Origin: Candidatus Pelagibacter ubique HIMB058 | GTDB lineage: Bacteria > Pseudomonadota > Alphaproteobacteria > Pelagibacterales > Pelagibacteraceae | Direction of reading: 5' to 3' | Assembly: GCA_000419545.1 (NCBI GenBank) | Contig: ATTF01000007.1 | Span: 1-49,483 of the forward strand | DNA length: 49,483 nucleotides | Shown here: positions 44,300-49,483 of the stretch, piece after piece | Layout of the letters: the number at the start of each line of letters is the position of its first letter | How positions within the stretch are numbered: the stretch's first letter is position 1 | Notes under the pieces: generated by a model | The model's database searches: none | The model's input: only the letters and a program-made list of their open reading frames with translations | What the model was told of the DNA's origin: nothing | Position numbers and translations under genes: made by a program

Positions 44300-45095
44300 A
44301 TGTATATCCATAATTTAGACCCTGTTTTATTAGATTTTGGATTTATAGCAATCAGATGGTATTCATTAGCTTATATCTTTGGAATTGTTATCGGTTGGTG
44401 GTTAGGAAAGAAAATTGTCAAAAATTTTTTACTGAATGTTGATTTTAAATTTGATGTAAGAGAGTTTGATGACCTTATAACGTATCTAATAATTTCTATA
44501 ATAGTTGGTGGTAGACTTGGATACGTTCTTTTTTATAATTTTGAATTTTATATTTCAAATCCAGCAGAAATAATAAAAATTTGGAAAGGTGGAATGTCTT
44601 TCCACGGAGCTTTGATTGGAATAATAATAGGAACACACCTTTTTTCGATCAGGAAAAATATTCCCACATTTTTTTTTTCTAGATGTTATAGCGTGTGTTT
44701 CACCAATAGGAATACTATTTGGGAGAATCGCAAACTTTATCAATGGAGAACTTATTGGTAAGGTAACTGATGTATCTTGGGGTATTATTTTTCCCACTAT
44801 TGATATGATGCCGAGACACCCTTCTCAGTTATATGAAGCTTTACTAGAAGGTTTAATATTATTTATTTTAATTAATACGATTACTTTAAAACAAAAATAT
44901 AAGGTTGGTTTAAGCTCATCATTATTTTTAATTTTTTATGGTATATTTAGAATTGTAGCCGAACAATTTAGAGAGCCTGACTCTCAATTAGGTTACTTAT
45001 TTGGAAATTTAAGTATGGGCACAATACTCAGTTCAATAATGGTAATTTCAGGTTTTGTATTTTTGATTATTTTAAGAAAAAAAAATGAAAGCTAA
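44300..45095 (+). pseudogene. lgt: Prolipoprotein diacylglyceryl transferase Lgt, reading frame broken at a ten-T run
   Basis: Lgt attaches diacylglycerol to the lipobox Cys of prolipoproteins. The first frame (44300-44761) contains IRWYSLAYIFG, GGRLGYVLFYN and GGMSFHGALIG, then loses homology after a run of ten T (44669-44678). Removing one T restores the frame, giving a DVIACVSPIGILFGRIANF segment, the Lgt signature INGELIGK, RHPSQLYEALLEG and FRIVAEQFREPDSQLGY down to 45095. The restored protein would be about 264 residues, normal for Lgt, with every conserved motif intact. A sequencing error or rescue by slippage is more likely than true loss, because Lgt is usually essential in Gram-negative bacteria. 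Confidence 0.9.
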
Positions 45096-49245: not shown

Positions 49246-49483
49246 ATGTGGTATCGTAGGACTTCCAAATGTAGGAAAGTCTACCCTTTTCAATGCTTTA
49301 ACAGCTTCTAAGAACGCTGAAGCAGCTAACTTTCCTTTCTGTACAATAGATCCAAACATTGGAATTGTAGATGTGGTTGATGAGAGGTTAGATAAATTAA
49401 CTGAATTATCAAAATCTAAAAAAAAAATTTATACTAATATTACTTTTGTTGATATTGCAGGATTAGTAAAAGGTGCTTCTAAA
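49235..49483 (+). CDS. ychF: Ribosome-binding ATPase YchF, N-terminal part (runs off the window)
   Basis: The first 83 codons of an OBG-family P-loop ATPase are present. It starts with the YchF hallmark [20 protein letters not shown], followed by [19 protein letters not shown] and the Walker B region [13 protein letters not shown]. YchF prefers ATP over GTP and acts in translation and stress response. The ATG lies inside the last codons of pth, so the frames overlap by 11 bases. A run of ten A at 49418-49427 is in frame here. Confidence 0.95.

Follow-up and report, generated by a model that had tools for sequence, protein, structure and literature searches.

Single-base indels in A/T runs affect anything from less than 1% to roughly 3% of genes in draft genomes and metagenomes (PMC3277595); homopolymer errors were found there in 0.32-1.02% of genes on Illumina metagenome contigs and in 2.13-2.78% with 454 sequencing. 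A comparable sequence pattern is known from pseudo-pseudogenes, or slippage-corrected frameshifts, where an added base lengthens a run in a gene that is otherwise intact and under selection (PMC1088944; PMC3017870). Selection against slippage is visible from run lengths of nine bases in many bacteria (PMC1088944). In Blochmannia vafer homopolymer frameshifts are reported in essential genes, eight genes in all and at a rate similar to that reported below, and correction by slippage has been proposed (PMC3017870). Transcription does slip at runs, with insertions prevailing over deletions, and no restored frame was found in the study concerned (PMC5574713). The gene considered here encodes Lgt, a protein that E. 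coli cannot do without and that is regarded as essential in proteobacteria (PMC9487459).

In the window, by which we mean the whole stretch of 49,483 nucleotides analysed, lgt lies on the forward strand and is split, as originally predicted, by a run of ten T at 44669-44678, with ACA before it and CTAGAT after it. The open reading frame starting at ATG 44300 begins MYIHNLDPVLLDFGF and follows the Lgt frame up to IGTHLFSIRKNIPTFFF. Its first 123 codons (44300-44668), which include the GGMSFHG motif, match positions 1-106 of the Lgt family profile PF01790 with an E-value of 3e-30. At the run it leaves the Lgt frame, continuing as an out-of-frame tail (SRCYSVCFTNRNTIWENRKLYQWRTYW, 44679-44761) to a stop codon at 44759-44761. 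The remainder of Lgt is found in the next frame (44679-45095, with its stop codon at 45093-45095), where it starts LDVIACVSPIGILFGRIANFINGEL, contains GRIANFINGE and QFREPD and matches positions 111-240 of PF01790 (E-value 2.4e-36).

Both halves thus resemble Lgt and jointly cover the whole PF01790 profile in their two frames; the difference from the family is that one continuous Lgt frame is absent from the assembled sequence, being broken once, at the T10 run. Setting the run to nine T yields a complete Lgt of 264 residues, reading FFFLDVIACVSPIGILFGR across the run and keeping GGMSFHG on its 5' side and GRIANFINGE on its 3' side. No further lesion was seen in lgt beyond the run, so that the claims that removing one T would give a complete protein with its motifs, and that the gene is otherwise undamaged, have both held up. 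No second copy of lgt was found in the genome (1.115 Mb in 59 contigs, estimated to be 98.16% complete). Production of Lgt in two pieces by internal re-initiation was considered and rejected, since the first ATG-started frame of the C-terminal part (44805-45095) begins 3' of GRIANFINGE and the second half would be incomplete. A run of ten A is also present in the window, at 49418-49427.

We consider it very probable, from the comparison of this assembly with its relatives, that the tenth T is a one-base homopolymer consensus error of the draft assembly. The real gene would then have nine T and encode an ordinary, full-length, working Lgt, and the only true lineage difference at the run would be a single synonymous change of TTC to TTT, extending T8 to T9. 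As part of this explanation we infer that read evidence would favour nine T. The feature is most likely ordinary rather than new biology.

Other genes of the same assembly carry much of this argument. A translated search of about 897 kb of the present genome (G000) against about 983 kb of its relative G133 gave 734 comparable genes; it was used in place of a DNA-level indel scan between the two, whose 501 indels were mostly paired alignment artefacts. Five of the 734 genes (0.7%) are frameshifted in G000 and, in the alignments, all five by single-base insertions (+1) in A/T runs. Besides lgt (T10, against T8CC in G133), they are argG, encoding argininosuccinate synthase (A8 against A7), a murA-like gene of the EPSP-synthase family (A8 against A7), yidC (T7 against T5C) and a kinase-like gene of the PRK family (A11 against A10). 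The four companion sites lie on contig C2 near 13345 (L105), on C11 near 4870 and 10943 (L113) and on C17 near 11440 (L119). Several of the five are core genes, while only about 2.5% of coding bases, as computed from run counts, lie in A/T runs of at least seven. Within the window lgt is the only frameshift among 45 gene pairs shared with G133, and the break in yidC is unique to G000 among about 138 genomes of the genus.

The original prediction had left error, mutation and slippage unranked. An error is now the best supported of the three, because the same +1 in A/T runs recurs in four further genes, several core genes among them; rescue by slippage has lost ground, for reasons given below. 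A cell in which lgt, yidC, the murA-like gene and argG were all broken is implausible, which leaves two options, a consensus that is wrong at these runs or a cell that corrects every one of them. The rate of 0.7% lies within the range reported for Illumina contigs (PMC3277595), and the present set differs from the errors described there in that all five cases are insertions. The run in yidC, T7, is short for sequencing to have gone wrong there, which counts against an error. G133 likewise yielded five frameshift candidates. Three of them are clean single-base deletions away from long runs; the other two are genes that have diverged strongly and align with many gaps, and in one of these an A-run change may be among the differences. 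Three isolated single N occur in continuous contigs of G000 (C10:3722, C12:18357 and C12:26506); they mark places, none of them at a run, where the consensus call was uncertain.

Alignment with lgt of related strains, suggested with the original prediction as a check on the run, was made across the genus members of the collection used, which are Pelagibacteraceae single cells and MAGs. An Lgt match was obtained in 134 of 169 of these mostly incomplete genomes. Three of the 134 genes are cut by contig ends (in G103, G025 and G140) and were left out; among the remaining 131 the gene is unbroken in 129, and it is split in two, the present genome and G086. The nearest relatives, G133 and G058, have 92% DNA identity to G000 over lgt and read ACA TTTTTTTT CC TAGAT at the run, that is, T8CC, in frame. 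Compared with them, G000 has a synonymous C to T change, which brings the run to nine, and one further T. In most of 64 distinct lgt segments, the T runs between the HG motif and GRxxNFxNGE reach a maximum length of 7-9 bases, and in-frame runs of T10 and T11 were seen in one segment each. The site is a run-prone loop, with a run length that drifts among relatives. Phase variation at a conserved run was rejected, since the relatives carry T8CC. In G086 (L033, G086:C1:156700-157800, at about 459-480) the split is independent and occurs in a run, A8, that precedes the homologous T run by a few codons.

Codon changes specific to G000, relative to G133 and G058, were counted on the two sides of the run. 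On the 3' side 12 are synonymous and 3 non-synonymous, and pairwise dN/dS is about 0.11 and 0.17; on the 5' side 2 are synonymous and 6 non-synonymous, which is too few to interpret. The 12 synonymous against 3 non-synonymous changes after the run show purifying selection, and the downstream half of lgt was maintained as protein up to the very recent past.

The alternative that survives best is that the T10 is real, either as a very recent replication-slippage mutation or as a minority or polymorphic allele captured in the assembly, a copy that would yield hardly any Lgt or none. Genuine slippage mutations can be present in single cells, and a run of T10 is a true hotspot of mutation; both points count against an error, as do the homopolymer frameshifts reported at a similar rate in essential genes of endosymbionts such as Blochmannia vafer (PMC3017870). 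Long A/T runs are moreover common, with about 54 coding runs of ten or more in the sample, the run at this site drifts to an in-frame T10 or T11 in two of the 64 relatives, and the independent split in G086 arose only a few codons away. Five breaks in one genome, with lgt, yidC, the murA-like gene and argG among them, are nevertheless hard to square with a living cell, there is no decay 3' of the run and Lgt is essential in proteobacteria (PMC9487459). A real T10 of this kind seems rather doubtful.

Considerably less probable is that the T10 is both real and fixed, and that enough Lgt is produced through slippage of RNA polymerase on U10, with one U lost or two gained, or, less likely, through a +1 slip of the ribosome. 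Run lengths of 9 and 12 would both give a complete Lgt, and the run, at ten bases, is longer than the nine from which many bacteria show selection against slippage (PMC1088944). Genes with frames restored at homopolymers have, besides, been proposed for Buchnera and Blochmannia (PMC3017870), and the likeness to such systems lies in a +1 that lengthens a run to ten in an otherwise intact, selected gene. The present case, known here at the DNA level, differs in several respects. The run is not conserved, G133 and G058 having T8CC. The usual slip, a gain of one U, does not restore the frame: like a -1 ribosomal slip it leads at once to UAG, with a stop after residue 127, so that the loss of one U, the rarer event, or the gain of two would be needed. 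The companion frameshifts include two at runs of 8 and one at a run of 7, too short for ready slippage, and the lineage is free-living and marine. Efficient rescue by slippage is accordingly unlikely. The broader proposition, that an AT-rich, free-living SAR11 lineage really carries +1 frameshifts in lgt, yidC, the murA-like gene and argG and tolerates them through run-length errors made when the genes are transcribed or translated, a mechanism proposed for insect endosymbionts, would on this analysis be more improbable still.

The state of the lipoprotein pathway bears on whether lgt might be decaying. A family search of the genome gave no match to LspA. When the region around lspA in G133 is compared with G000, it matches contig C33 from its first base until about 48 bases into the LspA region, where the match ends; lspA therefore falls in an assembly gap, which explains the missing match. 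The truncation of lspA by the contig end was seen in the stretch G000:C33:1-826 (L103 / L123). The lnt gene is present and unbroken, and LspA was found, as was Lgt, in 134 of the 169 mostly incomplete genomes of the genus. Loss of the whole pathway was rejected, since C33 ends just inside lspA and lnt is intact. The reading of lgt as a true pseudogene, with lipoprotein modification being lost from the lineage, would draw on the missing LspA match but deserves almost no credence, because 12 synonymous against 3 non-synonymous changes follow the run, with neither further lesions nor relaxed selection after the break and with lspA and lnt accounted for as above; the view that Lgt was unlikely to have been lost is upheld.

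If the tenth T is indeed a consensus error, an essential gene found broken at a long run in an AT-rich draft tells more of the assembly than of the organism, and inspection of other genes of the same assembly would settle most such cases. Were it real, slippage-tolerated essential genes would extend from endosymbionts to a bacterial group that ranks among the most abundant in the ocean. Among the three lgt genes left out of the comparison, that of G103 (L034, G103:C30) is on a contig whose end, at 442, falls inside lgt at the very point where the T run would start; the assembly may have stopped at the run.
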